36,583 bases of DNA. It comes from Limimaricola soesokkakensis (GTDB taxonomy: Bacteria > Pseudomonadota > Alphaproteobacteria > Rhodobacterales > Rhodobacteraceae). The translations under genes and the position numbers were made by a program. Positions within the stretch are counted from its first letter, which is position 1. Every line of letters starts with the position of its first letter. The DNA lies in the NCBI RefSeq assembly GCF_900172345.1, contig NZ_FWFY01000017.1, positions 1 to 36,583 of the forward strand. Direction: 5' to 3'. The notes under the pieces are model-generated. The model saw only the letters and a list, made by a program, of their open reading frames with translations. It did not search any database and had not been told where the DNA came from. Shown piece by piece: positions 11,931 through 36,247 of this stretch.

Positions 11931-12551
11931 ATGCAGCGAAGACAGTTTCTGACGCGAATGGCGGGGTTCGGTCTGACCGGGGCTACACTGCCGGGTCTGG
12001 CGCAGGCGCATGCGGGGGGCACGCTGCCCGAGAAGTTCCTGCCACGCGAAGTCGAGATCGCACCGGGCATTGCCGCGGGCGAGATCCACGTGATGCCGGA
12101 CGAGTTCGCGCTCTACTGGACCCTGCCCGAAGGCCGCGCCATCCGCTACAGCGTCGGCGTCGGACGCGCGGATCTCTATCATGCCGGCAGCTACGTCGTT
12201 CAGGTAAAGAAGGAATGGCCAAGCTGGAAGCCGACCCCGGCCATGGTGCGGAGGGAACCCGAGAAATACGAGAAATATGCCGAGGACGGCATGCCTGGCG
12301 GTCTCGACAACCCGCTCGGGGCACGGGCGCTCTATCTCTTCGTCGATGGTCGGGACACCTATCTGCGCATCCACGGCACCAACCAGCCCTCGACGATCGG
12401 TCAGGCGGTTTCGAATGGCTGCGCTCGGCTGGTGAACGACCACATCATCGACCTCTACGAAAAGGTCCCCTTGGGCACGAAGGTCTTCCTCTACCCGAAA
12501 GCGGGCAACCCGTACCGGCCGGACCAGCACGGGATGGACCACCACGCCTGA
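11931..12551 (+). CDS. L,D-transpeptidase (YkuD domain), Tat-type leader, copy 1
   Basis: A 206-residue exported enzyme. An RR-containing leader (residues 3-26, MQRRQFLTRMAGFGL) suggests Tat or Sec export. The YkuD domain covers about residues 50-200, with the active-site stretch IHGTN...AVSNGCARL (H148, S161, C164). L,D-transpeptidases form 3-3 crosslinks in peptidoglycan or attach proteins to it through a cysteine acyl-enzyme. It is closely similar along its length to the LDT at 32443-33024 (shared IHVMPDEFALYWTLP, KKEWPSW, NPLGARALYLF), so the two are paralogues or a duplicated gene. Placement after the copper block suggests a role under copper stress; this is inference. Confidence 0.9.
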   Translation: MQRRQFLTRMAGFGLTGATLPGLAQAHAGGTLPEKFLPREVEIAPGIAAGEIHVMPDEFALYWTLPEGRAIRYSVGVGRADLYHAGSYVVQVKKEWPSWKPTPAMVRREPEKYEKYAEDGMPGGLDNPLGARALYLFVDGRDTYLRIHGTNQPSTIGQAVSNGCARLVNDHIIDLYEKVPLGTKVFLYPKAGNPYRPDQHGMDHHA

Positions 12552-13429: not shown

Positions 13430-14443
13430 CTACCGCCTGGGCGTGACGAGGAGGAAGGGGCTGTCTGTTTCCTGGGTGGCGGCCTGAACGAACGCGCGCC
13501 CTCCAACTCCGCCATCAATGAGCGCCTGTGCCAGTGAATGCTGATGGCTGAGACTGGTGACGGCACCGGCAAACCCGTCGGCAATCCGGCCAAGACGTGT
13601 CGCCGCGTTGCGTCGTGCGGAAACGGCGTCGGCCAGATCCTTTTCGCCAGCTGCGACCAAGCGCGCCAGCGCATCCGGGTTCAGCTGGTTCAGGCACCTG
13701 ATGTTGTCGTCCCGGTAGCGCGCCGCGTAATCGCCCGCGTGTGCCAGATCCTCTGAAATGAAAAGCGTTCGCAGTTCGGCCTCCTCGCAGAGCCATTTCG
13801 CCGAGCTCAGGGTCCAGATCAGGTCCAGTTGTTCCATTGGAAGGACAGTGACCTTACCCAAAGCCATGGCCTCCCGCAGCAGGTCTGAGAGGGTGCTCAC
13901 ATGGGTGGAAAGCTGTCTCTGCAGGTTGCTTGCGAGGGAAAGGCAATCCGTTCGGGTGACAACGCTGTCGAGATCCTTGAGCGCCGAGCGGATCTCGCTG
14001 AAGAGGCGTCGAAGCTCGGCCTCCTGTATCAGCCTGCCGATCTCTCGGACCTCGCCTCTCAGAGTTCCGAGATGGTTCTCGATGGCGTCCAGACGCATCT
14101 TCATGATCGCGAAGCCGGCAACGGACACGCCGATCCCGATTCCGGTCAGGGCCATGTTGGCGAACTGCAAATTCTGCAGCAGTGCCATGCCTTGCCCCAA
14201 CTCCTTCAGGGAGGCTTTGATCTGTTCGTTTTGGACGAGGCCAATGACCCCAAGAGGCGAGAAACCGGTCTGTGCAGCGGCACCACCGGCTTGCGTCAAT
14301 GCTTGAGCAAAGCTCTGCGTCTGCTGGACATGACCCAAGACCTGACCAGAGGAAACGTCCTTGATGATCGCGCCAATCAGTTGAGCCTGACCGGACGAGA
14401 CAAGCGCATCGAGCCCAGGGGGGATGGCGTAAAGAAGAGGCAT
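13430..14443 (-). CDS. Membrane protein with coiled coil, second gene of a coupled pair, function unknown
   Basis: A 337-residue protein starting at ATG 14443, whose first base overlaps the stop of the upstream gene (TGATG), so translation is coupled. The N-terminal ~90 residues are Gly/Ala/Gln-rich. A single membrane segment at about 94-114 (NMALTGIGIGVSVAGFAIM) is followed at once by a likely coiled coil (about 115-170, KMRLDAIENHLGTLRGEVRE). The C-terminal ~170 residues are soluble, helical and acidic/basic mixed, with no recognised motif. No signal peptide is visible. The architecture (membrane anchor, coiled coil, helical domain) resembles effectors seen in accessory or defence loci, but no homology can be claimed here. 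Confidence 0.75.
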   Translation of the reverse strand: MPLLYAIPPGLDALVSSGQAQLIGAIIKDVSSGQVLGHVQQTQSFAQALTQAGGAAAQTGFSPLGVIGLVQNEQIKASLKELGQGMALLQNLQFANMALTGIGIGVSVAGFAIMKMRLDAIENHLGTLRGEVREIGRLIQEAELRRLFSEIRSALKDLDSVVTRTDCLSLASNLQRQLSTHVSTLSDLLREAMALGKVTVLPMEQLDLIWTLSSAKWLCEEAELRTLFISEDLAHAGDYAARYRDDNIRCLNQLNPDALARLVAAGEKDLADAVSARRNAATRLGRIADGFAGAVTSLSHQHSLAQALIDGGVGGRAFVQAATQETDSPFLLVTPRR

Positions 14444-17581: not shown

Positions 17582-18636
17582 ACGACCTTGTTGCACATCT
17601 CGGTGAGGGGGATTCACTGAGCGCGCGCTGATGGTTAGCTCGAGGGCATGCCGAAGCCTTCCCCGACCCGTTACCGCACGACGAACTGGGCAGACTACAA
17701 CGCGGCGCTGCGCAAGCGCGGCTCGCTGTCGGTCTGGTTTGACCCCGAGATGGTCTGGCACGCCGGCAAGACCGGGAAGCGTGGGCGGCCCGAGACTTTC
17801 TCGGACGCTGCGATCCAGACATGCCTCACTCTGAAAGTGCTCTTCGGGCTTCCGCTCCGGCAGACGGTCGGGCTGGTCGAGAGCTTGATCCAGATGGCGG
17901 GGCTGGATTGGCCAGTTCCGGACTATTCGACGCTGTGCCGCCGGCAGGCGCGGATCGCAGTGCAAGTTCCGTATCGCGCGTCAGGACAGCCGCTGAACCT
18001 GTTGATCGACAGCACCGGCATCAAGTTCCGCGGGGACGGCGAATGGCAGGCCCGCAAGCATGGCGCGTGACGCCGAAGGCAATGGCGGAAGGTTCATATT
18101 GCCATGGACGCGGGCACCGGGGATGTGCGCGCGGTCGAGTTCACCTCGAGCCGCCAGGGCGACAGCCCGCTGCTGCCGGACCTGCTGGCGCAGATCCCGC
18201 CGGAGGAGGCGATCGGCACGGTCACAGCTGACGGTGCCTATGATACACGACGATGCCATGGCGCGATCATCGATCGAGCTGCCGACGCGGTCATACCGAT
18301 CCGTCGTAATGGGCGTGTCTGGAAAGAAGACTGTCCCGCTGCTGCCGCGCGAAACGAGATCCTGCGGGCAACTCGGCGCTTGGGCCGGACGTTCTGGAAG
18401 AAGTGGACCGGCTATCACGTCCGAAGCCGGGTCGAGGCCAAGATGAACTGCCTGAAGCTCTTCGGCGAGAGGATCGTGTCACGAGATCCCGACCGCCAAA
18501 CCGCCGGAATCCAGACCCACATCGCCATCATGAACCGCTTCTCGGCCCTTGGACGGGCCGAGATCAGAGCCGTCTGCTGAAGAAAAGCGGAAAAGGGGAC
18601 AGTCATGCTCGCGGCTGCTTTGCGCAACATCGCCCT
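17582..18636 (+). mobile_element. IS5-family insertion sequence (inactive)
   Basis: An element of about 1.05 kb surrounding an IS5-type transposase. TGTTGCACA at 17589-17597 and, inverted, TGCGCAACA at 18621-18629 share the TGTTGC(A/G)CA core seen in terminal repeats of this family. The outer bases match poorly, so the exact ends are estimates and no target duplication could be defined. Confidence 0.5.
17648..18580 (+). pseudogene. IS5-family transposase with an internal stop codon
   Basis: One continuous frame of 310 codons is interrupted by a single TGA at 18068-18070. Before the stop: the N-terminal DUF4096/IS5 region (VWFDPEMVWHAGKTGKRGRP) and the first catalytic aspartate (D121 in LLIDSTGIK). 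After the stop, in the same frame: RRRQWRKVHIAMDAGTG, the second aspartate region VTADGAYDT, and the C-terminal RSRVEAKMNCLKLFGERIVS with the catalytic glutamate. All DDE parts are present, so a single nonsense change (or read-through) separates it from an intact gene. Confidence 0.85.
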
Positions 18637-24401: not shown

Positions 24402-25358
24402 TTACTCGAACTCCATCTGCTCGAAGACGCGGCCCGCGTTCTTTGTTGCCAGTTCCTCGAAGGTGTCGAGATGCGCGAAGGGGCTCTGGTCGACGTAATA
24501 GGCATCCGCCAGACCGCCGCCTGCGTCGAGATGCGCGCCGATCTTCTCGCGCAGCCAGACGAGGTAGTTGCGGGTGTAGCGCCGCACCTGATCCATGTTG
24601 GTCGGGTGGCCATGGCCGGGGATGACATAGGTCGCGCCCAAGGGCTCGAAGGCGGTTTCCCATGTTTCGATCCAGGCGCGGGTGTCGGTGTCGGCGAAGA
24701 CCGGCAGCATGCGCTCGTGAAACGCCATGTCACCCGAGATCACCAGTTTCTGCTCGGGCAGCCAGACCACGATGTCGCCGGGGCTGTGGGCCGGGCCGAG
24801 GTAGAGCACCTCGATCGGGAAATCTCCGAAGGGCACGGTGTAGCTTTCTTCGAACGTCTCGGTCGGGCCTTGAAGACGGGTCGTCTCGAACCGGTCGCGC
24901 AGCAGCCGCTCGCCTGCCAGGAACGAAGCGTCGCCGTCCTCCTCGAAGGCGCGCGCTGCCTCCGTATGGGCCAGAACCGGCACGCCCTCGTCGACCCAGT
25001 AGCCGTTGCCGAGCATCGCGTGGCCCTGTCCGTTCTCGTCGATCACCAGCTTCACCGGCTGGTCGGTCACCGTGCGGATCTCGTCGTGCAGCGCCTGCGC
25101 CAGACCGCGGCTGGCGCCCGCGTTGACCACCACCACCCCGTCGCCGGTGACGATGAAGCTCAGATTGTTGTTGTGCCCGGCATTCTCGTAGGTCGGCGGA
25201 GCGGTGGCGCCGGTGGCGGTCCAGACGCCGGGGAGGAACTCCACCGGCTTGGCGTAGAGCAGCGAGCCCGGATACTGATCCGCGATGTCCTCGTCGGCCA
25301 GTGCCTCGGTGGCGGCGAACAGCGTCAGGGCGGCCAGCACGCCGGGAATATGTCTCAT
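24402..25358 (-). CDS. Exported MBL-fold protein with an altered metal-binding motif
   Basis: A 318-residue exported protein starting at ATG 25358 with AGGAG upstream; the signal peptide is residues 1-21. The metallo-beta-lactamase fold is clear, resembling SoxH-like and quinoprotein-associated exported hydrolases. The first metal motif, usually HxHxDH, is replaced by ENGQGHAMLGN (N109, Q111, H113, A114). The later ligands are present: H191 (GPAHSPGD), D210 (ISGDMAF) and the HGH of the PGHGHP segment. It may bind a single metal or use a different ligand set. It is the most downstream minus-strand gene of the LDT/Dsb block, 98 bases after LDT copy 2. Confidence 0.85.
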   Translation of the reverse strand: MRHIPGVLAALTLFAATEALADEDIADQYPGSLLYAKPVEFLPGVWTATGATAPPTYENAGHNNNLSFIVTGDGVVVVNAGASRGLAQALHDEIRTVTDQPVKLVIDENGQGHAMLGNGYWVDEGVPVLAHTEAARAFEEDGDASFLAGERLLRDRFETTRLQGPTETFEESYTVPFGDFPIEVLYLGPAHSPGDIVVWLPEQKLVISGDMAFHERMLPVFADTDTRAWIETWETAFEPLGATYVIPGHGHPTNMDQVRRYTRNYLVWLREKIGAHLDAGGGLADAYYVDQSPFAHLDTFEELATKNAGRVFEQMEFE

Positions 25359-25456
25359 CGAAATCCTCTCCTCCTGCCGCACGACGGGCGGGGCGTCTCG
25401 CCGGAGAGCATGGTGGCGCGGGCGGCGGTGGTCCAGCCCGCACCGCCCGCAAGGCT

Positions 25457-26035
25457 TCAGATGATGCGGACTTGCGTGCCGACCGGGGTGATGGCGAAGA
25501 GCTGGGCAACCATCTCGTTGTAGAGACCGATGCAGCCATCGGAGGAGGGCCGCCCGATCTTGCGGGTGTCATGCGTGCCGTGGATCAGGTAGGCGGGCCA
25601 GCTCAGATACATCGCGTGGGTGCCGAGCGGGTTGTCGGGGCCGGGCGGCATGTAGCGCAGCTCGGGATTGCGCTCGACCTGGCTCGGCGTCGGGGTCCAG
25701 TCGGGGCCGACCTTCTTGCGCACGATCTCGGTGTAGCCGCGCTTGGTCAGCTCCTCGGAGATCGGAATCGAGGTCGGGAAGACGCGGTAGTCCGAGGCAT
25801 CGGCGTTCCAGTAGTGCAGCGCGCGCGACTGGGTGTCGGCGACGATGGTGGCGACACCGAGCGTGTCGAAGTGATCCTGCCAATACTGGGTGCGGAAGCT
25901 CGACACGTTGCGCTGCACGGGGGCCTGCGCGGGAGGCCGTGCGGACTGTGCGCGCAACAGCGAGGGGGTGGCCAGCGCGGTCGTGGCGGCAGCCGCGCCA
26001 AAAAGCGCCTGCCGGCGGGTGGGGGTGGTGCTCAT
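25457..26035 (-). CDS. L,D-transpeptidase (YkuD domain), copy 2
   Basis: A 192-residue exported protein with a Tat-like RR leader (residues 1-30, TRRQALFGAAAATTALATPS). The YkuD domain ends with YLIHGTHD...SSDGCIGLYN, in which the catalytic His and Cys are conserved (SDGCIGL replaces the more common SHGC). It is less similar to LDT copies 1 and 4 than those are to each other. A CTTATC-N5-CTTAAG element lies 56 bases upstream of its start. It shares a direction with the DsbA-like gene, 77 bases away, but has its own putative control site. Confidence 0.9.
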   Translation of the reverse strand: MSTTPTRRQALFGAAAATTALATPSLLRAQSARPPAQAPVQRNVSSFRTQYWQDHFDTLGVATIVADTQSRALHYWNADASDYRVFPTSIPISEELTKRGYTEIVRKKVGPDWTPTPSQVERNPELRYMPPGPDNPLGTHAMYLSWPAYLIHGTHDTRKIGRPSSDGCIGLYNEMVAQLFAITPVGTQVRII

Positions 26036-26090
26036 CTTGCCTGTGGTCCTGCTCTTGGTTGGGAGGCCGGGACAGGTCGACCACGGTCGC

Positions 26091-26107
26091 CTTATCCCAG
26101 CCTTAAG
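26091..26107. promoter_or_regulatory. PmrA-box-like site upstream of LDT copy 2
   Basis: CTTATC-N5-CTTAAG (half-sites 26091-26096 and 26102-26107), 56 bases upstream of the LDT start. It has the same 11-bp repeat period as the site at 30167, with one degenerate half. Confidence 0.5.
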
Positions 26108-26112
26108 GGGGC

Positions 26113-26745
26113 TCAGCCGCGCGCCATCGCGATCGCGTTCTCGAGCCCGGCCTTGTCCATCGCGCCGGGGTAGATCACCGTGCCGATGATGAAGGCGGGC
26201 GTGCCGCGCAGCTGGAAGGCTGCTGCCTGCGCGCCGTTGCGGGTGAGAAGCCCGTCCCACTTGTCGCGGTTCTCGCCATAGGCGGCGTCGAGCGCCGCGA
26301 CGTCGAGCCCGGCCTCGGCGAGCGTCTCCTCGATCAGCGTGTCGTCCAGCCGCCCCTCGGTCGCCATCAGTGCGTCGTTCGCGGTCAGGTAGGAGTCGAG
26401 CGAGGCCGCGCCGAGCGCCAGCTGAGCCGCGCGCACCGATGGCGCGCCGAAGATCGGCCAATCCTTCATCACCAGCCGGACATTGCCGTCTGCTTCGACC
26501 ACCTCGTTCAGGACCGGGTGGTTCGCCTTGCAGTAGGGGCATTGGTAGTCGAAGAACTCGACGATGGTGACGTCGCCCTCGGGGTTGCCGAGCACCGGGT
26601 TGGCGGGGTCGAACATCACCTCGTCGATGGTCGGGCGCAGCGGCTGCTCCTGCGCGCGCGCCGAGCGCGTCGCGGTCCAGAGCGTGATGCCGCCCAAGGC
26701 GAGCAGGCCGCCGGTGAGCGCGGTGCGGCGGGTGAGGTTGGTCAT
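26113..26745 (-). CDS. DsbA/DsbG-like periplasmic thiol-disulfide protein
   Basis: A 210-residue exported thioredoxin-fold protein with an RR leader (residues 6-31, RRTALTGGLLALGGITLW). The active site is CPYC (C69, C72) in FFDYQCPYC, with the cis-proline in RGTPAFI near residue 188. The long helical insertion between them is that of DsbA-family proteins (Com1/ScsC-like). Such proteins oxidise or isomerise disulfides; with DsbD and the TlpA-like protein in the same operon, a reducing or copper-related role is likely. The start overlaps the stop of LDT copy 3 (ATGA). Confidence 0.92.
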   Translation of the reverse strand: MTNLTRRTALTGGLLALGGITLWTATRSARAQEQPLRPTIDEVMFDPANPVLGNPEGDVTIVEFFDYQCPYCKANHPVLNEVVEADGNVRLVMKDWPIFGAPSVRAAQLALGAASLDSYLTANDALMATEGRLDDTLIEETLAEAGLDVAALDAAYGENRDKWDGLLTRNGAQAAAFQLRGTPAFIIGTVIYPGAMDKAGLENAIAMARG

Positions 26746-27494
26746 GAGGTCTCTCCTTGGTTGGTCGTCTGCTGGGGAGTGGGCAGGGGCGTGCCCGGCG
26801 GCACCGTGCCCTTGCCGCTGTCGGCTTCGCTCAGCACCACGACCTTGGCGCCCGCGCGGGCGCGCTCGTGCAGGTCGATGATGTCTTGGTTGAACAGGCG
26901 GATGCAGCCGGCCGAGGTGGCCTTGCCGATCGACCATGGGTCGTTGGTGCCGTGAATGCGGTAGAGCGTGTCGCGCCCGTCCTTGAACAGGTAGAGCGCC
27001 CGCGCGCCGAGCGGGTTGTCGATGCCGCCCTCCATGCCGCCGGCATGGGGCCCGTAGAGGTCGGGATCGCGGCGCAGCATGTTGGGGGTCGGCGTCCAGC
27101 GCGGCCATTCGCGGGTGAAGGGGATGTTGCCTTCGCCCGAGAAGCCGCGCCCCTGATCGCCCACCGCGACGCCGTAGCGCATCGCCCGGTCGCCCTCCAT
27201 CACGAGGTAGAGAAACCGCGCATGCGGATCGACTACGATGGTGCCGGGCGCCTCGTCGGTCCAGTAGCCGACCTCCTGGCGGCGATTGCGTTCGTCGAGA
27301 TACTGTTCGGGCACGGCGGGAATGACCTCGCCCTCGTCCTCCACCGTCGCATACATCGCCCGGACCTCGGCGGGGAGCACGGGTTCGGCCTCGGGAGGAG
27401 CGGCGGGTTCGGGCGCTGGGGCGGCAGCGCAGGCCGCCAGAAGCGGCAGCAGCGCGAGCGACGCCAGCCGCCGGGGGCGGATGGTTCCGGTCAT
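26742..27494 (-). CDS. L,D-transpeptidase lipoprotein, copy 3
   Basis: A 250-residue protein with a lipobox (LLAAC, C22), so it should be a membrane-anchored lipoprotein. An Ala/Pro/Glu-rich linker (about 23-42) precedes the YkuD domain, which contains RYGVAVGDQGRGF, NPLGARALYLFKDG and the active-site block RIHGTNDPWSIGKATSAGCIRLF, with catalytic His and Cys. It sits inside the Dsb operon, with ATGA overlaps on both sides (TlpA-like upstream, DsbA-like downstream). The placement of a Cys enzyme among thiol-reducing proteins implies that its cysteine is kept reduced by them. Confidence 0.93.
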   Translation of the reverse strand: MTGTIRPRRLASLALLPLLAACAAAPAPEPAAPPEAEPVLPAEVRAMYATVEDEGEVIPAVPEQYLDERNRRQEVGYWTDEAPGTIVVDPHARFLYLVMEGDRAMRYGVAVGDQGRGFSGEGNIPFTREWPRWTPTPNMLRRDPDLYGPHAGGMEGGIDNPLGARALYLFKDGRDTLYRIHGTNDPWSIGKATSAGCIRLFNQDIIDLHERARAGAKVVVLSEADSGKGTVPPGTPLPTPQQTTNQGETS

Positions 27495-28309
27495 GGGGTG
27501 GTCCTTTCGAGGTCGTCGAGGCCCGCGCGGAGCTGCGCGCGGGAGATTTCGCCGGTATGGGCGGCCCGCTGCCTTCCCTCGGCGTCGAAGAACAGGGTGG
27601 TCGGCAGGCCCAGCAGGCCGAACGCCTCCATCAGCGCGCCCTCCGGGTCGCGCAGCACGCCGGTCGTGCCCAGCGACTGCCCCGCGAGGTAGGTCTCGAT
27701 CACCTGCGTCGCCTCGCGTTGGTTGGCGAAGAGGATCTGCGCCCCCTTCGTTTCGGCGGCGACCTCCATCATCATCGGCAGTTCGCGGCGGCAGGGCGGG
27801 CACCAGCTGGCCCAGAGGTTGATGACAAGCGGCTGCCCCGCCGTCTCGGCGAGCGGGAACGGGCGGCCTGACAGTTCCGCGAGATGGATCGCGGGCAGGC
27901 GTCCGCGCGTCTCGTCGGGCAGCGCGGCCCGGGCCACCGCGACCCCCGTGCCCGCGAGGGTGACGGCCAGCAGCAACGGCGTCAGCGTCCTGGGGTGGCG
28001 CAGCAGCGCCGCCACAAGCGCGAGGCCCAGCCCGAACAGGCCCACCTGCGGTGCGAAGCCGCCTTGCCAGAGCTTCAACGCGTCGAGCGGCGCAGCGCGA
28101 AAACTGTCCAACTGTATCGCCACGAAGCCCGCGCGCGCCGCGGCCACCCAGCCGAGGACGGCGATGAGCGACCAGCGCCGCAGCGCCTCGGCCTGCGCGG
28201 GGCGGCGCCACGCGGCGATCTCGGCGACGCCGATGAAGACGAGCACCGCGATCACGGCGAGGAATCGCTCGCCGGAGAACACCAGTGGGCCGATCGCCAC
28301 CGCGTTCAT
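27491..28309 (-). CDS. Lgt-like membrane domain fused to a TlpA-type thioredoxin domain
   Basis: A 272-residue inner-membrane protein. Residues ~1-130 hold about four hydrophobic segments and match part of the prolipoprotein diacylglyceryl transferase (Lgt) pattern: AARAGFVAIQ..., then LKLWQGGFAPQVGLFGLGLA. The C-terminal part (about 138-272) is a TlpA/ResA-like thioredoxin domain with NLWASWCPPCRRELP (C170, C173). The membrane part is too short for a full Lgt. It is likely a membrane-tethered thiol reductase that takes electrons from DsbD. ATGA overlaps join it to DsbD upstream and LDT copy 3 downstream. Confidence 0.85.
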   Translation of the reverse strand: MNAVAIGPLVFSGERFLAVIAVLVFIGVAEIAAWRRPAQAEALRRWSLIAVLGWVAAARAGFVAIQLDSFRAAPLDALKLWQGGFAPQVGLFGLGLALVAALLRHPRTLTPLLLAVTLAGTGVAVARAALPDETRGRLPAIHLAELSGRPFPLAETAGQPLVINLWASWCPPCRRELPMMMEVAAETKGAQILFANQREATQVIETYLAGQSLGTTGVLRDPEGALMEAFGLLGLPTTLFFDAEGRQRAAHTGEISRAQLRAGLDDLERTTP

Positions 28310-30144
28310 CGGATCGTCCGCGCCGAGGCCACGACCTCCTCCACGCCCGGCTCGCCGATCAAGCGGCTGCCCGGCGCCTCGCGGCCCTCGGCGTCGAGGA
28401 ACACCATGGTGGGCGGGCCGACCGAGCCGAGGTGATCGAGCAGCGCCTGCCCCTCGGCGTCAAACTCCGACAGGTCGGCGGTGATGAGCGTGGTGCCTGC
28501 CAGCGCCTCGCGGACCATCGGGTCGGGCCAGAGGCGGCGCTCAATCACCTTGCAGGTGACGCACCAGTCGGCGGTGACGTAGATCATCGACGGCCCGTCG
28601 CTCCCTGCGAGCGCGGCGTCGAGCTGCGGCACCGAGGTGACGGGGGTGAAGGCGATATCGTTATCGGCGACACCGGGCGCGGCCTCGGCCGGGCGCAGAC
28701 CGGCCAGCGGGCGCATCGGGTCCTCCGCGCCGCTCGCCGCCCCGAGGCCCATGAGCACGGCGGCGAGGATCGCGGCGAGCCCGACGGTTTTGCGGATGCG
28801 CGGCGCCGTGCCGGAGCCGGGCTCCAGCCGGTCCAGCCCGCCGACGAAGACGCCTGAACCAAGCAGCAGCGCCGCCCAGAGCGCCAGCGTGGCGGGGCCG
28901 GGCAGCAGCCGGCCGCCGAGCCAGATCGCCATGCCGAGGAAGACGACGCCGAAGGCGGCCTTAACGCCCTCCATCCATGCCCCCGCACGCGGCAGCATCC
29001 GCGCGCCGAAGGTCCCCGCGATCAGGAGCGGCACGCCCTGTCCCAGACCGAGCGCGAAGAGCGCGGCCGCACCGAGCCACGCGTCGCCGGTCCGCGCGAT
29101 GTAAAGGAGCGCCCCGGCCAGCGGCGCGGTCACGCAGGGCCCCATGATCAGCGCCGAGGTGAAGCCGAGCGCCGCGGCCCCGCCCAGCGTGCCGCCCCGG
29201 CCCGCACCGATGCCCGACAGCCGACCAGTCCAGGCCTGCGGCAGCCGCATCTCGTAGAGGCCGAACATCGACAGCGCCAGCGCCACGAAGACCACGGCGA
29301 CCACGCCCACGGCCCAGGGCGATTGCAGCGCCACCTGCAAGTTCTGGCCCGACCACGCGGCGATGAGGCCCAGCAGGCCGAAGGCCGCCGCCATCGCCAG
29401 CACGTAGGTGCCCGAGAGCAGCGCGCCGCGTCTGGCGCCGACCGTGCCGTCCTGTCCGGCCAGCAGCCCCGCGAGAATCGGAAACATCGGGAAGACGCAG
29501 GGCGTGAAGGCGAGCAGCAGCCCGAAGCCGAAGAAGCCCGCCAGCACGAGAAGCGGCCCACCACGGGCGCTCAGCCCGTCGAGCAGGCCGCCCTCATTGG
29601 CAAGGATGATGCCACTTTCCGATGCCACGGATGTCGCCGGGTCTTTGACGGAGGCGGGTCCGGGCGCGGGCGGCGTGGCCGCAGCCTCGATCGCGGGCAG
29701 GGTGTCGGTGACCGGCGGGTAGCAGATCCCGTCCTCCTGACAGCCCTGGTAGGTCACGCGCACCGGGCCTTCCGCCGCGCCGAGCTGCGCCTCGGTGCCA
29801 TGGAAATACACCTCGACGGTGCCGAAGGTCGGGTCGTCCTTGGTGACGCCGGGCTCGGTCTCGAGGGTCAGCGATCTCCCGTCCTCGGTCTCGGCGGCGA
29901 GGTATTCGCGGTAGAGGTAATAGCCCTCAGCAACGTCCCAGCGCAGCAGACGGCTGCCATCAGGCTGCGGCAAGACCTCGAGTGCGAAGGCCTCGCGCGG
30001 GTCCATCGGCGGCGACTGCCGGCCGAAGGCGTCGCCGCTCTGCGCAAGGGCGGCGGCGACGACCAGGGCGAGGGACAGCGCCGCGAGGAGCGGGGCGATG
30101 ATGGCGCGCCGCAGGGCGGCGGGGTATGAAAGGGTCCGTGTCAT
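28306..30144 (-). CDS. dsbD: Thiol:disulfide interchange protein DsbD
   Basis: A 612-residue inner-membrane reductase. The signal peptide is at about 1-35. The N-terminal periplasmic domain has the cysteine pair GCQEDGICYPP. The central eight-helix domain carries the reactive cysteines in AFTPCVFPMFPIL and GPCVTAPLAG. The C-terminal thioredoxin domain has ADWCVTCK (C528, C531). It moves electrons from cytosolic thioredoxin to periplasmic thiol proteins. It is the first gene of a coupled operon, dsbD-tlpA-LDT-dsbA. A perfect CTTAAG-N5-CTTAAG site lies 23 bases upstream of ATG 30144, and the response regulator is divergent. Confidence 0.95.
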   Translation of the reverse strand: MTRTLSYPAALRRAIIAPLLAALSLALVVAAALAQSGDAFGRQSPPMDPREAFALEVLPQPDGSRLLRWDVAEGYYLYREYLAAETEDGRSLTLETEPGVTKDDPTFGTVEVYFHGTEAQLGAAEGPVRVTYQGCQEDGICYPPVTDTLPAIEAAATPPAPGPASVKDPATSVASESGIILANEGGLLDGLSARGGPLLVLAGFFGFGLLLAFTPCVFPMFPILAGLLAGQDGTVGARRGALLSGTYVLAMAAAFGLLGLIAAWSGQNLQVALQSPWAVGVVAVVFVALALSMFGLYEMRLPQAWTGRLSGIGAGRGGTLGGAAALGFTSALIMGPCVTAPLAGALLYIARTGDAWLGAAALFALGLGQGVPLLIAGTFGARMLPRAGAWMEGVKAAFGVVFLGMAIWLGGRLLPGPATLALWAALLLGSGVFVGGLDRLEPGSGTAPRIRKTVGLAAILAAVLMGLGAASGAEDPMRPLAGLRPAEAAPGVADNDIAFTPVTSVPQLDAALAGSDGPSMIYVTADWCVTCKVIERRLWPDPMVREALAGTTLITADLSEFDAEGQALLDHLGSVGPPTMVFLDAEGREAPGSRLIGEPGVEEVVASARTIR

Positions 30145-30166
30145 GGCGCCCGGATCGGCGCGCTAC

Positions 30167-30183
30167 CTTAAGCGGCCCTTAAG
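30167..30183. promoter_or_regulatory. PmrA-box-like site between dsbD and the response regulator
   Basis: A perfect direct repeat CTTAAG-CGGCC-CTTAAG (half-sites 30167-30172 and 30178-30183), the spacing of PmrA/BasR-type response-regulator boxes. Being between divergent genes, it could serve autoregulation as well as dsbD. Confidence 0.75.
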
Positions 30184-30228
30184 CCCGCAGGCGCAACAGC
30201 GACGGCAAGGACGACAACCGGAGGCGGG

Positions 30229-30894
30229 ATGCGGGTTCTGATCGTGGAGGATGACGAGACGCTGGCCGACGGGCTGAGCGTCGGGCTGCGGTTGCAGGGT
30301 TTCACCCCGGAGCTGGTGACCTGCTGCGCCGATGCGCGCGAGGCGCTGGCGCAGGGCGGCTTCTCGGCGGTGGTGCTCGACCTGATGCTGCCCGACGGCT
30401 CGGGGCTCGACCTGCTGGCCGGGCTGCGAGCGGGCGGCGACCGTTTGCCGGTGCTGCTGCTCACGGCGCTCGACCAGGTGCGCGACCGGATCGGCGGGCT
30501 CGACGCCGGGGCGGACGACTACCTCGGCAAGCCTTTCGATCTGGGCGAGGTCAGCGCCCGGCTGCGCGCAATCATTCGCCGCGCCGAGGGGCGGGCCAGC
30601 GCGCTGCTCGAATGGAACGGGCTGCGGCTCGACCCGTCGCGGATGAGCGGCGAGATGGATGGGCGCGAGCTGCGCTTCTCGCGGCGCGAATTTTCGGTGC
30701 TGCGCGCGTTGATCGAGACCCCCGGCGTGATCGTCGAGAAGGACCGGCTGGAGGAGCGCCTTTACGGATGGCAGGAGGGGGTCGAGAGCAACGCCGTCGA
30801 GGTGCATGTTCACAAGCTGCGGGCCAAACTGGGCGCGGGCTTCATCGAGACGGTGCGCGGCGTCGGCTACCGCCTCGCGGAGCCGCGGCCATGA
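30229..30894 (+). CDS. OmpR/PmrA-type response regulator
   Basis: A 221-residue DNA-binding regulator. The receiver domain (residues 1-115) has the acidic pocket (E7, D8, D9), phospho-acceptor D51 in LDLMLPDGSG, the conserved Thr in LLLTALD and the Lys in GKPFDLGE. The C-terminal winged helix (about 125-221) ends with VHKLRAKLG and the VRGVGYRL wing. It resembles QseB/PmrA/TctD-type regulators. It overlaps the kinase gene by ATGA. It probably binds the CTTAAG repeats listed here; which signal it serves (copper, thiol or envelope stress) is inference from the neighbours. Confidence 0.93.
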   Translation: MRVLIVEDDETLADGLSVGLRLQGFTPELVTCCADAREALAQGGFSAVVLDLMLPDGSGLDLLAGLRAGGDRLPVLLLTALDQVRDRIGGLDAGADDYLGKPFDLGEVSARLRAIIRRAEGRASALLEWNGLRLDPSRMSGEMDGRELRFSRREFSVLRALIETPGVIVEKDRLEERLYGWQEGVESNAVEVHVHKLRAKLGAGFIETVRGVGYRLAEPRP

Positions 30895-32297
30895 GTTCGA
30901 TCCGCACGCGGCTGTTCGTGATCCTGTTGGCGGCGACCGGGGTGGTCTGGCTCTCGGCGGTCTGGTGGATCCAGCACTCGACCCGCTCAGAGGTTGAACA
31001 GGTGCTCGACGCGCGCCTCGCCGAGGCGGCGCAGATGGTCTCGTCGCTGATCTCGGACCGGCGGATCGACGTGGCCTCGGCCGGGCCGGTGGAGCTGGAC
31101 CTGCCCGTGCCCGCGGCGGGCTCGGACTATTCGCGCCAGCTCTCCTGCCAGATCTGGTCGCTCGACGGGACGCTGCTGGGCGCCTCAGCCAGCGCGCCAT
31201 CGGGGCGGCTCGCGGCGGAGCAAACGGGCTTTTCCGACAGCCTCGTCGATGGCGAGGCGTGGCGCGTCTACACCATGATCAACGAAGATCTGGGCCTGAG
31301 GGTGATGGTCGGCGACCGGCTCACCGTGCGCGAGCGACTGGTCACGGACGTGGTGCGCGGGCTGCTGCTGCCGGCGCTGGCGATCCTGCCGGTGCTGGCG
31401 GCGCTGATCTGGATCAGCGTCGGGCGCGGTCTTGCGCCGCTCGACCGGATGGCACGGGCGCTGAGCGCGCGAACGGCCGATGATCTCGGGCCGGTGTCGG
31501 CAGGCCCGCTGCCGCGCGAGATCCGGCCCATGGGCGCGGCGCTCGACGGGCTGTTCGCTCGCGTGGCCGGGGCGCGCGAGCGGGAGAAGAGCTTCACCGC
31601 CTTCGCCGCGCATGAGCTGAAGACCCCGCTTGCGGGCATCAAGACGCAGGCGCAGATCGCGGCGATGGCCCCGGACGAGGCGACACGCCGGCAGGCGCTG
31701 GCGCGGATCGAGGCCGGGGTAGCCCGCACCGACCGGATGGTTCGGCAGCTTCTCGAACTCGCTGCCGTTGACGGAGCTCCGGAGGGAGGTGGCGAGATCG
31801 TCGACATGACGCGCTTGGCGACCGACTTGGTGCAGGACATGCGGAGGCTGGCCATCGAGCGGGATGTGCAGTTCAGGCTGGAGATGGCACCAGAGCTGTT
31901 CTGCCGAATACCCGACCCGGTGCTGCCCGCCGTGGCGTTGCGCAATATCGTTGAAAACGCCGTGCTGGCGAGCCCGCCGGGCTGCGAGGTCGTGGTCGAA
32001 GGCGTGGCACGGGACGCGCGGATCACGCTGTCCGTGCTCGACCGTGGACCCGGCATTCCCGAGGCCGAGCGGGCCCGCGTGACCGAGCGGTTCTTTCGCG
32101 GTGCGGGCGCGCCCGCGGGGGGCAGCGGGCTGGGGCTGGCGATCGCGCAGGTGGCGGTCGAGCGGCTCGGCGGGCGGCTTGGCTTCGCGCCACGGGCGGG
32201 CGGAGGCGAGGCTGTGCAGATTGTGCTGCCCTGTGCCGGACCCCTTCACGAAAGCGGCAGGGCGTCGGAAGGACGCGACACTGCCACACGCTCGTAA
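30891..32297 (+). CDS. Sensor histidine kinase (QseC/PmrB type)
   Basis: A 468-residue inner-membrane kinase. Two membrane segments (about residues 7-26 and 155-176) enclose a periplasmic sensor of about 128 residues that carries a lone Cys (C86) but no clear metal motif. A HAMP-like linker (about 178-230) follows. The phospho-acceptor H241 lies in FAAHELKTPLAG. The ATPase domain has N (NIVENAVLAS), the G1 box DRGPGIP, and the G2 box GGSGLGLAIAQ. It overlaps the response regulator. The Cys and the neighbouring thiol and LDT genes make a redox or copper-related signal plausible but unproven. Confidence 0.93.
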   Translation: MSSIRTRLFVILLAATGVVWLSAVWWIQHSTRSEVEQVLDARLAEAAQMVSSLISDRRIDVASAGPVELDLPVPAAGSDYSRQLSCQIWSLDGTLLGASASAPSGRLAAEQTGFSDSLVDGEAWRVYTMINEDLGLRVMVGDRLTVRERLVTDVVRGLLLPALAILPVLAALIWISVGRGLAPLDRMARALSARTADDLGPVSAGPLPREIRPMGAALDGLFARVAGAREREKSFTAFAAHELKTPLAGIKTQAQIAAMAPDEATRRQALARIEAGVARTDRMVRQLLELAAVDGAPEGGGEIVDMTRLATDLVQDMRRLAIERDVQFRLEMAPELFCRIPDPVLPAVALRNIVENAVLASPPGCEVVVEGVARDARITLSVLDRGPGIPEAERARVTERFFRGAGAPAGGSGLGLAIAQVAVERLGGRLGFAPRAGGGEAVQIVLPCAGPLHESGRASEGRDTATRS

Positions 32298-32309
32298 GGC
32301 TGCCTTAAG
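32293..32309. promoter_or_regulatory. PmrA-box-like site upstream of LDT copy 4
   Basis: CGTAAG-GCTGC-CTTAAG (half-sites 32293-32298 and 32304-32309): the same 11-bp spacing with one imperfect half. It starts in the last codons of the kinase gene and lies 133 bases upstream of the LDT start, so the LDT probably has its own promoter in this gap. Confidence 0.55.
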
Positions 32310-32442
32310 CTCGATGCATTCGACACGGCATGGACGCACTGCGCTTGGAACCCCGGATCGACCGGTGCCAGCGCGGGGCCATCATTACCATATCCTGCGT
32401 ATGACATCCGTCGGCGTCGGGACAAAACGGACGAGGTGACGC

Positions 32443-33024
32443 ATGCTGAGACGAGGTTTTCTCAAGAGAACGGCCGCTGCTTTCGCGGGTGCCACGCTAC
32501 CCGCCGGGAGGGTGTTGGCGCATGAGGGCGCGGCGCAGGCCGCGGTGATCCCGCCCCGCGAGGTGGCCATCGCCGAAGGCATCCCGGCCGGGCAGATACA
32601 CGTCATGCCCGACGAGTTCGCGCTCTACTGGACGCTGCCGGGCGCGCGAGCGCTGCGCTACGCGGTCGGGGTGGGCCGAGACGATCTCTACGAGGCGGGG
32701 ACCTTCCTGATCCAAGCCAAGAAGGAATGGCCCAGCTGGACACCGACCCCCGGCATGCTCGAACGCGAGCCGGAGGTCTACGGCAAATGGGCCGACGGCA
32801 TGCCGGGCGGGATCGATAACCCCCTGGGCGCCCGGGCGCTCTACTTGTTCAAGGACGGCTACGACACCTTCCTGCGCATCCACGGCACCAACGCGCCATC
32901 CACCATCGGGACCGCCGTGTCGAACGGCTGCGCCCGCCTGGTGAACGAGCAGATCATCGAGCTCTATGAAAAGGTGCCACTGGAGACGAAGGTGTTCCTG
33001 TATCCCAAGGTGGGCATGGCCTAA
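32443..33024 (+). CDS. L,D-transpeptidase (YkuD domain), copy 4, paralogue of copy 1
   Basis: A 193-residue exported enzyme with an RR leader (residues 1-25, LRRGFLKRTAAAFAGATLP). The YkuD catalytic stretch is IHGTN...AVSNGCARLV (H147, S160, C163). It matches LDT copy 1 (11931-12551) almost position for position, including IHVMPDEFALYWTLP, AKKEWPSW, NPLGARALYLF and KVFLYPK at the end. It follows the two-component genes and has an upstream CTTAAG-type site. It is convergent with the SulP gene. Confidence 0.92.
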   Translation: MLRRGFLKRTAAAFAGATLPAGRVLAHEGAAQAAVIPPREVAIAEGIPAGQIHVMPDEFALYWTLPGARALRYAVGVGRDDLYEAGTFLIQAKKEWPSWTPTPGMLEREPEVYGKWADGMPGGIDNPLGARALYLFKDGYDTFLRIHGTNAPSTIGTAVSNGCARLVNEQIIELYEKVPLETKVFLYPKVGMA

Positions 33025-33076: not shown

Positions 33077-34831
33077 TCAGGCGCTCTGGCGGACCGGCTG
33101 CGGGGTTTCCGGCCCGCCTTCCGCCAGCTTGCACGCCGCCTCGTGCTGGCTGAGGAACACCTCGCCGGTCAGTTCGTCGAGGAAATGGCTGCGCTTGAGG
33201 CGATCCATCACCGGCCCCTTCACCTCGCTCAGATGCAGGCGGATGCCCGCGTCGTGCAGACGAGTGTTGATCGCCTCGAGCGATTCCAGCGCCGAAAGGT
33301 CGATCTCGTTGACTGCCGGGAACATCAGCACGACGTCGGTGAGTTCAGGCTTGTCGGCGGCATAGGCCGACAGCTGGTCCTCAAGATAGCGGGCGTTCGG
33401 GAAGTAGAGGCTTTCATCGACGCGCAGTGACAGCACGTGTGGCTGGGTCTCGACCTCGTGGCGCAGCACGTTGCGGAAATGCTCGGTGCCCGGCACCCGG
33501 CCGACCACCGCCATGTGCGGGCGCGAGGTCTTGTAGAGATGCACGAGGATCGAGGTGACCACACCCGCGGTGACGCCCACCTCGACACCGAACACCAGCG
33601 TCAGCAGGATCGTCGCCGAGACGGCGGCGAAATCGGCGCGGCTGAAGGCCCAGGCACGCTTCAGAACCGAAAAGTCGACGAGGCTGAGGACGGCGACGAT
33701 GATCGTGGCGGCCAGCGTCGCCTTGGGCAGGTAGTGGATCAGCGGCGTCAGGAACAGCGCGGCCAGCGCCAGGCCAAGGGCGGTGAAAGCCCCGGCGGCG
33801 GGGGTCTCGGCCCCGGCATCGTAGTTCACCACCGATCGCGAGAAGCCCCCCGTCACCGGGAAGCCGCCCGTGAAGGCCGCGCCGAGGTTGGCGGTGCCGA
33901 GCCCGATCAACTCCTGGTCGGGGTCGATGCGCTGGCGCTTCTTGGCGGCCAGCGTCTGCGCAACCGAGATCGACTCGACGAAGCCGATGATCGAGATCAG
34001 CAGGGCGGGGACGAACAGCTGCGACAGCAGCGCGGGCGAGAAGGAGGGCAGGGTGAGCGGCGGCAGGCTTTGCGGCACCTCGCCGACGATAGCGACGCCA
34101 CGTTTGCCCAGATCGAACAGCCAGACCGCCAGCGTCGTGGCGACGATGGCCAGGACGGGGCCGGTCTTGGCGCCGATGTCGGCCATGCGCGGGCCGAGGC
34201 CGATACGGCGCAACAGCGGCTTCAGCCCCTTGCGGACCCAGAACAGGAACGCGGTGGCAGAGACGCCGAGCACGACGGTGATCAGGTTGGTCTCGCCCAA
34301 ATGCGACCAAAGCCCGTCGAGGATCTCGATCAGCGTATGGCCTTCGCCTTCAATGCCGAGGATATGGCGCAGCTGGCTCGCCGCGATCAGGATGCCAGAC
34401 GCCGTGATGAAGCCCGCGATCACCGGGTGCGACAGGAAGTTGGCGAGAAAGCCGAGGCGGAACAGCCCCAGCGCCAGCAGCATCGCGCCCGACAGGAAGG
34501 CGAGCGTCAGCGCCGCGGCAACGTAGCCCGCCGTGCCGCTTTCGGCGATGTTGCCCACCGCCGCCGCCGTCATCAGCGACACCACCGCGACCGGGCCCAC
34601 CGCCAATGCGCGCGAGGTGCCGAAGATCGCGTAGAGCAGGATCGGCGCGATCGAGGCATAGATCCCGGCCTCGGGCGGCATGCCGGCAAGCAGCGCGTAG
34701 GCCAGCGACTGCGGGATCAGCATGATCGTCACGATCACGGCGGCGACCATGTCGCCGGTGAAGGTGGAGCGGTCGTAACGCCGTCCCCAGTCGAGGATCG
34801 GCAAATAGCGCGACAGCGGGGGCATGGTCAT
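33077..34831 (-). CDS. SulP-family anion transporter with a STAS domain
   Basis: A 584-residue inner-membrane transporter. The N-terminal pattern (YDRSTFTGDMVAAVIVTIML, IPQSLAYALLAGMPPEAGIY) and the middle GLGTANLGAAFTGGFPVTGG are characteristic of SulP/SLC26 proteins, which move sulfate, bicarbonate or other anions. Roughly 10-12 membrane segments span residues 20-420. The cytoplasmic STAS domain covers about 450-550 (VDESLYFPNARYLEDQL, EIDLSALESLEAINTRL). Near the persulfide-dioxygenase and YeeE genes, sulfate or sulfite export is a reasonable guess. A terminator separates it from the gene upstream. Confidence 0.93.
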   Translation of the reverse strand: MTMPPLSRYLPILDWGRRYDRSTFTGDMVAAVIVTIMLIPQSLAYALLAGMPPEAGIYASIAPILLYAIFGTSRALAVGPVAVVSLMTAAAVGNIAESGTAGYVAAALTLAFLSGAMLLALGLFRLGFLANFLSHPVIAGFITASGILIAASQLRHILGIEGEGHTLIEILDGLWSHLGETNLITVVLGVSATAFLFWVRKGLKPLLRRIGLGPRMADIGAKTGPVLAIVATTLAVWLFDLGKRGVAIVGEVPQSLPPLTLPSFSPALLSQLFVPALLISIIGFVESISVAQTLAAKKRQRIDPDQELIGLGTANLGAAFTGGFPVTGGFSRSVVNYDAGAETPAAGAFTALGLALAALFLTPLIHYLPKATLAATIIVAVLSLVDFSVLKRAWAFSRADFAAVSATILLTLVFGVEVGVTAGVVTSILVHLYKTSRPHMAVVGRVPGTEHFRNVLRHEVETQPHVLSLRVDESLYFPNARYLEDQLSAYAADKPELTDVVLMFPAVNEIDLSALESLEAINTRLHDAGIRLHLSEVKGPVMDRLKRSHFLDELTGEVFLSQHEAACKLAEGGPETPQPVRQSA

Positions 34832-34889: not shown

Positions 34890-35807
34890 TCAGTCGAAGC
34901 GGTTCACCGGCAGCTTCAGGTAGTGGTTGCCGTCATTCTCCGCCGGGGGCAGCCGACCGCCGCGCAGGTTGATCTGCAGCGCGGCGAGGATGCGGTTCGG
35001 CAGCGCCAGCGTCTTGTCGCGGGTCTGACGGCGCTCGATGAAGGCTTCGCGCTCGGTGCCATCCTTGACGTGGATGTTGTGCGCGCGGTGCTCGTCGACC
35101 GTGGCCTCCCACATCGGCTCCTTGCGCTCCTTGGTGCCGTAGTCATGGCCGACATTGAGGCGGGTGTTGCCCGGCAGGGCGAGGATGTCCTGGATCGAGT
35201 CCCACAGCTCGGCTGTCTTGCCGCCCGGGAAATCCGAGCGCGAAGTGCCGGCGTCGGGATGCATCAGCGTGTCATGCACGAAGGCCGCGTCGCCGCAGAC
35301 ATAGGTGATCGAGCCCAGCGTATGACCGGGCGAGAGCATCACACGCGCGTCCAGCTCACCGATCTTGAAGGTCTCGCCCTCCTCGAACAGGTGGTCGAAA
35401 TCGCGGTTCGCGTCGAAGGCGTCGGGCAGGTTGTAGATATCGGCCCAGATCTTGGCGATCTCGGGGACCAGCGCGCCGATGGCGTTGGGGGCACCGGTGC
35501 GCGCCTTGAGGTGCGCCGAGGCCATGACGTGGTCGGCATGGGGGTGAGTGTCGAGCACCCACTGCACCTTCAGGTCGTTGTCGCGCACGATGTCGAGAAC
35601 CTGATCCATGCTCTCGGTGGAGAAACGGTAGTTCTTGGGATCGAAATTCCAGACCACGTCGATCAGCGCCGCCTGACGGGTCTTGGGATCGGCGCAGATA
35701 TACTGGATCGACCCGGTGTCGGGCTCGTAGATACCCCAGACATCGGGGCTGCCTTCGCCGGTCGAGGGCGAATGGCGGACGACGCGGCTCTTGAGGGGGT
35801 CGGTCAT
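34890..35807 (-). CDS. Persulfide-dioxygenase-like MBL-fold protein (ETHE1/Blh type)
   Basis: A 305-residue cytosolic enzyme. The metal motif is complete: THPHADH (H88, H90, D92, H93), then H162 (SPGHTLGS), D179 (FVHDTLM) and H221 (NVGHDYG). The overall pattern (SIQYICADPKTRQAALIDVV, HADHVMASAHLKARTGAP, FPGGKTAELWDSI) is that of the glutathione-persulfide dioxygenases called ETHE1, SdoA or Blh, which use Fe(II) and O2 to oxidise persulfide to sulfite. Its start overlaps the stop of the YeeE-type gene (ATGA). The operon would import and oxidise reduced sulfur. Confidence 0.9.
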   Translation of the reverse strand: MTDPLKSRVVRHSPSTGEGSPDVWGIYEPDTGSIQYICADPKTRQAALIDVVWNFDPKNYRFSTESMDQVLDIVRDNDLKVQWVLDTHPHADHVMASAHLKARTGAPNAIGALVPEIAKIWADIYNLPDAFDANRDFDHLFEEGETFKIGELDARVMLSPGHTLGSITYVCGDAAFVHDTLMHPDAGTSRSDFPGGKTAELWDSIQDILALPGNTRLNVGHDYGTKERKEPMWEATVDEHRAHNIHVKDGTEREAFIERRQTRDKTLALPNRILAALQINLRGGRLPPAENDGNHYLKLPVNRFD

Positions 35808-36247
35808 TGGGTGGCTCCTTTGCTGAGGGGCATGGAGAGGTCAGGGGTATGCCGGGCCAGCCACATGCCGGCCAGCATGAAGGGCACGAAGATCAGCGTC
35901 CCGGTCGCCGCGATCGGCAGCGCGGTCAGCGCCGGGCCGGGGCAGAAGCCGCCGAGCCCCCAACCGGTGCCGAACAGCACCGCGCCGGTCAGCAGCTTGG
36001 GGTCGAGGTCGGTGCGGCTCGGGATACGGAACTCGGTGTCGAAGAACGGACGCGAGCGGCTCCGGGTGAGCCAGGCAAAGCCCGGTGCAGTCACCGCGAT
36101 GGCGCCGCCCATGACGAAGGCGAGGCTCGGATCCCAAGTGCCGAACACGTCGAGGAAGTTCAGCACCTTGGCCGGGTCGGACATGCCGGAGATGATCAGG
36201 CCGAAGCCGAAGATCAGGCCGGAGAGAAGCGCGAAGATCTGTTTCAT
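35804..36247 (-). CDS. YeeE/YedE-type half transporter (second unit)
   Basis: A 147-residue membrane protein with about four segments. Conserved features are SGLIFGFGLIISGMSDPAKV at residues 9-28 and GTGWGLGGFCPGPALTAL at about 93-110. The Cys in GFCPGP is the conserved thiol of YeeE/YedE-family proteins that take up thiosulfate-like sulfur. It pairs with the upstream gene (one base apart) as the two halves of the fold (PmpA/PmpB-like). It is coupled to the persulfide-dioxygenase-like gene. Confidence 0.92.
   Translation of the reverse strand: MKQIFALLSGLIFGFGLIISGMSDPAKVLNFLDVFGTWDPSLAFVMGGAIAVTAPGFAWLTRSRSRPFFDTEFRIPSRTDLDPKLLTGAVLFGTGWGLGGFCPGPALTALPIAATGTLIFVPFMLAGMWLARHTPDLSMPLSKGATQ

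Follow-up and report, generated by a model that had tools for sequence, protein, structure and literature searches.

A predicted cysteine-sensor-controlled thiol-repair and L,D-transpeptidase regulon in Limimaricola soesokkakensis and other alphaproteobacteria

Why should a gene for an L,D-transpeptidase (LDT) be locked into an operon of thiol-disulfide exchange proteins, and which stress would call for the two together? The question is raised by a stretch of 36,583 nucleotides from Limimaricola soesokkakensis (contig NZ_FWFY01000017.1; the whole stretch is called the window here), in which the minus-strand genes dsbD, tlpA, LDTb and dsbA are joined by ATGA at three of three junctions, just as the initial annotation had described. 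Pfam and NCBIfam agree with all four names. The first gene (28306..30144) encodes a protein-disulfide reductase (NF001419, 469.9 bits against a cut-off of 330), the second (27491..28309) a TlpA-family thioredoxin (WCPPC) with an LGT-like membrane segment, the third (26742..27494) a YkuD lipoprotein, and the fourth (26113..26745) a DsbA-family protein that domain models and a PDB search place as ScsC/DsbG-like, with a CPYC active site, Thr-Pro at the cis-Pro position and a twin-arginine-like N-terminus. Divergent from dsbD across an 84 bp gap runs a plus-strand pair that the annotation had passed over, consisting of an OmpR-type response regulator (30229..30894) and a histidine kinase (30891..32297) whose 2CSK_N periplasmic sensor contains a conserved cysteine, Cys86. 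The gap holds a perfect copy of the direct repeat CTTAAGG-N4-CTTAAGG (30166..30183), a predicted site for the regulator. Two further LDT genes flank this arrangement, each with a near-copy of the TTAAG-N6-TTAAG box. LDTc (25457..26035, minus strand) starts 77 bp past dsbA, outside the overlapping run, and its near-copy (26090..26107, minus strand; two mismatches to CTTAAGGN4CTTAAGG) lies about 55 bp before it; LDTd (32443..33024, plus strand) is downstream of the kinase, and its near-copy (32292..32310) overlaps the 3' end of the kinase gene about 130 bp before LDTd.

The answer proposed here, at a probability of about 0.48, is that a cysteine-sensing two-component system induces a DsbD/TlpA/ScsC-DsbG-like relay together with single-cysteine LDTs that the relay would keep reduced. 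Within that answer, the regulon as described is highly probable, and the role of an LDT as a client of the relay, which leans on analogy, has slightly better than even odds. Judged by its sequence features, the operon is better called a thiol-repair and LDT regulon under the control of a cysteine sensor than a part of the copper island that lies elsewhere in the window.

The unit was followed through 41 alphaproteobacterial dsbD loci, namely the window, 20 opened plasmid loci, 11 genome loci and 9 genome-contig loci. The plasmid loci were picked by hand and also used for choosing sulfur markers, and the 20 genome loci served as a hold-out. Within 4 kb of dsbD, a DsbA-like gene was present in 37 loci, an LDT in 35, a TlpA gene in 33, a response regulator in 31 and a histidine kinase in 30. 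Since ten loci (the window, L045 and eight plasmid loci) had been found via the LDT, and since all six loci that lack an LDT are among the 31 found via DsbD, the LDT association is best stated as 25 of 31. Outside the class, 71 dsbD loci were classed by title (two titles read just Pseudomonadota or proteobacterium), and tblastn with the alphaproteobacterial queries found neither an LDT nor the operon's type of DsbA in any of the 43 that had 4 kb on both sides.

Protein searches of plasmids placed an LDT at a distance of about one gene from dsbD in several Rhodobacterales and Hyphomicrobiales records. Among the opened plasmid loci, the full order of a regulator-kinase pair divergent from dsbD-tlpA-LDT-dsbA recurs in Limimaricola, Rhizobium rosettiformans, Agrobacterium K224, Paracoccus sp. 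TOH, Pseudorhizobium, Rhizobium Q54, Neorhizobium and Roseinatronobacter. Paracoccus aminophilus is another carrier of the unit. Variants also occur: in the Martelella, Bosea and Thioclava loci no tlpA separates dsbD from the LDT, those of Ensifer and Rhizobium WSM4643 have no annotated LDT, and in Palleronia the kinase pair is located elsewhere. The nearest plasmid match comes from Limimaricola variabilis, with 98.9% identity for LDTb (73% of the protein aligned) and 96.7% for dsbD; in this relative (L085, about 10865-13518) an IS21 istA/istB pair sits right after a shortened LDTc, ahead of the MBL gene. With at most three candidates scored per genome, a dsbD match at E 1e-60 was present in 13 of the 394 family genomes, the own genome included, and in one of 385 genomes of the class, again the own genome, which marks the unit as accessory. 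Because the arrangement recurs in two orders together with a conserved repeat, it exceeds what chance would give. In terms of gene content and location, this is a mobile gene set of two alphaproteobacterial orders, often carried on plasmids, that brings together a reductase, an LDT, a sensor and a DNA box. No description of the operon or its box was found among the listed titles and abstract openings of the open-access literature searched.

The initial annotation had counted four LDT genes, and all four score above the Pfam cut-off for YkuD: LDTa (11931..12551, plus strand), LDTb, LDTc and LDTd, with LDTc scored within a longer reading frame. The own genome of 3.94 Mb has 14 YkuD matches, and this contig of 36.6 kb holds four of these. 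With a catalytic histidine and cysteine motif in addition to the domain, the four are predicted to be L,D-transpeptidases that make 3-3, 1-3 or protein-wall links. LDTa, LDTb and LDTd retain the histidine and the SxGCxR motif; LDTc and its nearest relatives, unlike the other LDTs of the window, have glycine in place of arginine after the catalytic cysteine (SSDGCIG). LDTa, whose nearest paralogue in the window is LDTd, has a single cysteine, as do LDTc and LDTd, both of which start with a twin-arginine-like N-terminus, and the two cysteines of LDTb are that of the lipobox and the catalytic one (SAGCIR). In a tree of 117 YkuD domains, built by a short search with no bootstraps, one branch of 41 rows contains all 28 operon LDTs, nine other LDTs from module loci and four solitary ones, at modest support (SH-aLRT 84). 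A separate group (SH-aLRT 96) takes in 33 of the 38 solitary LDTb proteins, and one falls outside both groups. LDTa, LDTc, LDTd and the LDTs of copper clusters are placed outside the operon-LDT branch. A general coupling of LDTs to Dsb proteins was considered and rejected: dsbD is near two of 40 LDTb-anchored regions (L045 and L047) and absent from the other 38.

Turning to the sensor, its cysteine is present in 35 of 36 aligned module-type kinases, defined by at least 38% identity to the window kinase and an adjoining close regulator; the remaining one is cut off at that point, so that all 35 scorable kinases have it. From the own genome and relatives, 26 of 27 2CSK_N matches were taken. Five are module kinases with the cysteine (that of the window and four of the genus), and the other 21 domains, several of them orthologues of one another, have no cysteine in the sensor stretch and carry tyrosine (20) or tryptophan (one) instead. 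Three kinases read from copper clusters (L196, L197 and L241) have sensors rich in histidine and methionine, with no cysteine between the membrane segments. An AlphaFold model of the window kinase, of low confidence (mean pLDDT 69, pTM 0.43, five sequences), puts Cys86 in a strand between two long N-terminal helices. From this pattern we infer that Cys86 may sense a thiol-reactive condition.

The box follows the same genes. The 350 bp upstream of dsbD contain its exact core, TTAAG-N6-TTAAG, at 37 of the 41 alphaproteobacterial loci versus three of the 71 others; a shorter upstream stretch gives 35 of 41, and one of the four loci without a box (L094) begins at a contig end. Among four further loci of the same genus, three have the box and the fourth is a cut-off contig bearing the kinase alone. 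The window itself yields seven matches at up to three mismatches, with both strands of near-palindromes counted, against 0.40 expected; they correspond to the three places before dsbD, LDTc and LDTd and to one weak site inside dsbD. Scored per gene match, the box precedes DsbD in 38 of 42 cases, the regulator in 32 of 37, DsbG in three of six, LDTc in four of 12, LDT in five of 49 and DsbA in three of 38. It was absent from 16 copper genes, 12 copper-cluster loci and 41 solitary LDTb genes, and the reversed pattern gave zero in every gene class scored. LDTc controls had a box in one of 34 cases, at a locus with a related regulator-kinase pair, and in four other loci where such a pair stands beside LDTc with no adjacent dsbD, LDTc had a box in three. 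The 41 loci hold 65 boxes altogether, and 54 of these are at dsbD, regulator, LDT, DsbG, DsbA or TlpA genes. This distribution makes it likely that the response regulator binds TTAAG-N6-TTAAG repeats. The shared function of the LDT and Dsb genes that had been read from the operon layout is thereby strengthened, since the coupling is conserved, the operon LDTs fall in one branch, and dsbD and several LDTs share the box. A second box in the own genome, on contig C22 between two frames whose sequences we take to be dnaJ-like and radC-like, was judged a chance copy (reversed control two versus three own-genome matches).

The remaining 11 boxes lie off the module, and the genes behind them include SoxB-like, COX1/CcoN-like, thioredoxin and DoxX genes and, in one locus, a SoxA/TsdA-domain cytochrome. 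The SoxB-like genes (L178:13002-14486, L095:6475-7902 and L092:2954-4402) score 294-315 bits for the SoxB thiosulfohydrolase model TIGR04486, whose cut-off is 550. Boxes are also found upstream of the COX1/CcoN-like oxidase subunit genes at L178:14734-16305 and L179:4685-6226, and upstream of a DoxX protein gene at L108:6027-6590 that scores 80.3 bits, against a cut-off of 80, for the NCBIfam model of HvfX copper-binding RiPP maturation.

What the relay could do for an LDT is suggested by its thioredoxin-fold members. DsbD carries electrons from the cytoplasm. The best PDB match of the DsbA-like protein is 3gyk and the second 7rgv (E 5e-25), which is the ScsC of C. crescentus (PMC8900818); next come 4xvw, 6nen, 4gxz and 6mhh, whose entry names refer to copper or DsbA-like proteins. 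Across 41 DsbA-family rows the active site reads CPYC in 22, CPFC in 15, CPHC in two, CPCC in one and CIYC in one, and Thr-Pro is present in the cis-Pro region of all 41. According to the part of PMC4460558 that deals with it, CPYC with Thr-Pro is the DsbG-type signature; the module protein thus carries a DsbG/ScsC-type active site and not the CPHC/Val of DsbA, with CPFC taken as equivalent in our own reading. E. coli DsbG is described in a review excerpt as preferring and interacting with periplasmic transpeptidases that bear a single essential cysteine (PMC3526765). The likeness lies in a DsbD-fed CPYC/Thr-Pro protein paired with a single-cysteine transpeptidase, and DsbG is annotated at some of the opened loci; unlike the E. 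coli system, the module has the reductase and its putative client in one operon, often plasmid-borne. The earlier suggestion that the relay could keep the LDT cysteine reduced therefore gains a precedent for the kind of mechanism from E. coli DsbG (PMC3526765), but the client step in this operon would hold by analogy.

Put together, the proposed sequence of events would begin with the detection of a thiol-reactive condition by periplasmic Cys86. The regulator would then act on TTAAG-N6-TTAAG repeats to induce dsbD-tlpA-LDTb-dsbA along with LDTc and LDTd, a step suggested by the conservation of the box. DsbD would pass electrons to TlpA and to the ScsC/DsbG-like DsbA, and these two may keep or restore the reduced catalytic cysteine of the co-induced LDTs, by analogy with DsbG and its transpeptidases in E. 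coli. LDT crosslinks or the anchoring of wall proteins could in this way continue under stress, the likeliest stress being reactive sulfur species, that is, the chemistry of sulfide, polysulfide, sulfite and thiosulfate on cysteines.

Several observations weigh against this proposal. Six of the 41 loci have no LDT within 4 kb of dsbD, and 11 have no regulator of at least 55% identity there, at least one of them at a contig end. A locus of the same genus (L341) has the box, the regulator-kinase pair, dsbD, tlpA, dsbA and LDTc, yet its tlpA and dsbA have no LDTb match between them. Among 58 LDT frames near dsbD, 13 have at least three cysteines as read; some of the starts are uncertain. It is uncommon for an LDT to have its own box, and LDTb of the window has none. 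Across 11 module genomes, matches to the repeat outnumber those to its reversed control by only a modest margin (52 versus 36, both strands), and because chance copies thus occur away from the module, the exact repeat alone is non-specific genome-wide; many of these outlying boxes adjoin frames that match no query. On the side of the stress, the box is directly upstream of none of the 74 sulfur-marker genes scored, many of them inside operons, 23 of the 41 loci have no sulfur marker within 10 kb, the plasmid loci were hand-picked, and in the hold-out genome loci at least one copper marker is as common as at least one sulfur marker (five of 20 each, P 0.016 each versus 38 controls). Finally, and in favor of copper, ScsC is reported in the relevant part of PMC8900818 to bind Cu(I) and to restore copper tolerance.

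The neighbours of the operon were tallied in the 40 fetched loci (20 genome, 20 plasmid; about 20 kb or less each), with the window left out and 38 solitary-LDTb loci as controls. At least two sulfur markers are found in 14 of the 40 loci and at least one in 17; for copper the counts are two and six. By sample, five of 20 genome loci (P 0.003) and nine of 20 plasmid loci (P 2e-5) have two or more sulfur markers, versus none of 38 controls; for two or more copper markers, the counts are two of 20 genome loci (P 0.11), no plasmid locus and no control. At least one sulfur marker is present in five genome loci, 12 plasmid loci and one control, and at least one copper marker in five, one and one, respectively; three of the five copper-positive genome loci depend on a single match of 29-46% identity. 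Neither kind of marker is present at many of the loci; the window contig has both. The genome set is the fairer comparison because the plasmid loci, besides being hand-picked, had guided the choice of sulfur markers, and since one copper marker is as common as one sulfur marker in that set, the odds of a sulfur trigger are reduced and copper stays a candidate. Sulfur is favored as the setting of the module, at the level of a preference; reactive sulfur species as the main trigger fall a little short of even odds, and oxidants or copper as the main signal are somewhat less likely.

On some plasmids the sulfide detoxification operon bigR-blh adjoins the module. Both genes are near it in the plasmid loci of Agrobacterium, Pseudorhizobium and Rhizobium sp. 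Q54, and Bosea has blh and no gene named bigR. Unlike module genes, the scored genes of this kind have no TTAAG box directly upstream, so bigR-blh is a neighbour and not a member. The same status is given to the genes at the right end of the window, all on the minus strand and with no box found: SulP (33077..34831), a persulfide-dioxygenase-like MBL protein (34890..35807), DUF6691 (35804..36247) and a YeeE/YedE piece close to the contig end (36249..36512). Among curated models, the MBL protein scores best with that of the sulfur transferase/dioxygenase Blh (407.7 bits against a cut-off of 625), and the alignment begins at model position 139, without the N-terminal third. On the other side of the module, the gene next to LDTc encodes a SoxH-related MBL-fold hydrolase (24402..25358, minus strand; best NCBIfam model TIGR04559, score below cut-off).

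Among the alternatives, the best placed, though unlikely, is a copper-tolerance module in which an Scs-like relay (DsbD as ScsB, DsbA as ScsC, TlpA as ScsD) binds Cu(I) and shields the LDT cysteines. ScsD is a TlpA-like protein, and like ScsB-ScsC-ScsD the module has a DsbD-type transporter, an ScsC-like DsbA and a TlpA-like protein in one operon, with a sequence match to a solved ScsC; its DsbD was placed by the DsbD model and not by comparison with ScsB. By analogy, a copper-tolerance role as in Scs is thus putative, and the order of the PDB matches, with CcScsC second and the copper or DsbA-like entries behind it, agrees with it. Unlike Scs, the module adds an LDT, a cysteine-bearing sensor kinase and the TTAAG box, and most module loci have sulfur markers or none nearby. 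Going by its title, listed among the references of PMC12729407 and PMC10864386, one paper (Peters 2018) reports copper inhibition of LDTs.

The initial annotation had set the LDTs and the Dsb operon beside the copper island, with copper as the organizing stress. LDTa does lie in the island, about 600 bp after csoR, with no box found, and is left out of the proposed regulon. The operon itself is another matter: about 12 kb separate it from the island (about 2.0-11.3 kb) and LDTa, which lie to its left, and an insertion sequence (IS) transposase stands between. This transposase is read in two frames (DDE_Tnp_1_5 and DDE_Tnp_1) at 17648-18580. Island and module share one contig here and one plasmid in L. 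variabilis, where about 32 kb separate the LDTa/csoR/copA block from the operon and further metal genes lie between (multicopper oxidase, SCO, DUF411 and a heavy-metal P-type ATPase), the nearest about 11 kb off. A relative of LDTa adjoins copper genes in three opened plasmids and has at least two copper markers at two of 20 genome loci; for LDTc relatives in genome samples the counts are one of 20 in the top set and three of 20 in the lower set.

LDTs are present in true copper clusters as well, of the form regulator-kinase-LDTc-cytochrome c-multicopper oxidase-DsbA-LDT-CopA-CueR. Such clusters were seen on Roseobacter-group plasmids and in family genomes (L196 4209-21832, L197, L199, L227, L233, L235, L241 and L243), with LDTs, a DsbA-family gene and cytochromes c, and variously a multicopper oxidase, CopA, CueR or a DsbD-domain gene. 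The operon shares neither a common box nor a sensor type with copper genes: the box is missing from all copper genes and copper-cluster loci scored, and the copper-cluster kinases read have the different, histidine- and methionine-rich sensor. The neighbour tallies, in which two or more copper markers are found at two of 40 loci against 14 for sulfur, make copper a weak organizing stress for the operon. Copper fits LDTa and the copper-cluster LDT/DsbA locus better than this operon. Even for the clusters, the excerpted text of PMC9426580 reports that D. shibae without its 102-kb plasmid shows no difference in copper resistance, the plasmid-bearing strain being slightly more resistant to silver, which speaks against copper as their function. 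D. shibae DSM 112351 carries the L197 cluster on a 102-kb plasmid, pDSHI06, and may be another strain than that of the study.

A general periplasmic oxidant response to peroxide or hypochlorous acid, in which the sensor cysteine is oxidized and the LDT is one of many clients, is the next alternative and likewise improbable. The cysteine sensor would suit it, and the DsbG precedent, in the parts of PMC4460558 and PMC3526765 that treat it, concerns sulfenylation. There is also a regulatory parallel in E. coli, where HprSR, and CusSR, adjoin and control periplasmic protein repair at hiuH-msrPQ as described in part of PMC9302797, a comparison that leaves the sensors aside. Unlike that system, the module has a thiol relay and an LDT in place of a methionine sulfoxide reductase. 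Specific partnership with LDTs is indicated by their dedicated branch and by the boxes ahead of LDTc, LDTd and some further LDT genes, and the enrichment of sulfur neighbours also argues against a general oxidant response. A bolder form of the sulfur reading is a long shot: the relay would strip adducts of sulfide-derived polysulfide, sulfite or thiosulfate from the LDT cysteine, a plasmid-borne sulfur-sensing regulon would supply fresh LDTs, and in some hosts the SoxB-like thiosulfohydrolase would act on the cysteine-S-sulfonate of the LDT. It is very unlikely that the YkuD proteins have no wall role and instead act in a periplasmic sulfur pathway as cysteine carriers or transferases, served by DsbD and TlpA reductants as in Sox systems, for despite the SoxB-like and SoxH-related genes nearby or behind a box and the glycine of LDTc, the histidine and SxGCxR of LDTa, LDTb and LDTd are kept, and LDTc-type genes are near-universal (363 of the 394 family genomes have a match at E 1e-40), which fits a housekeeping role in the wall.

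To our knowledge, the protection of an exposed LDT cysteine is understood mainly from one E. coli example. The cysteine-sensing regulon proposed here would place a reductase, a client enzyme, a sensor and a DNA box in one mobile unit, in which sensor input, DNA target and client can each be addressed by point mutation, and its two-component sensor may read periplasmic thiol damage through one cysteine. The analysis also separates two look-alike arrangements of LDT and Dsb genes, one with a cysteine sensor and more often in sulfur settings, the other with a histidine- and methionine-rich sensor and in copper clusters. If the bolder sulfur-adduct reading were true, wall crosslinking would be an unrecognized target of reactive sulfur species. 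More broadly, the gene set suggests that these bacteria possess a dedicated means of keeping the wall working while the LDT cysteine is under chemical attack.

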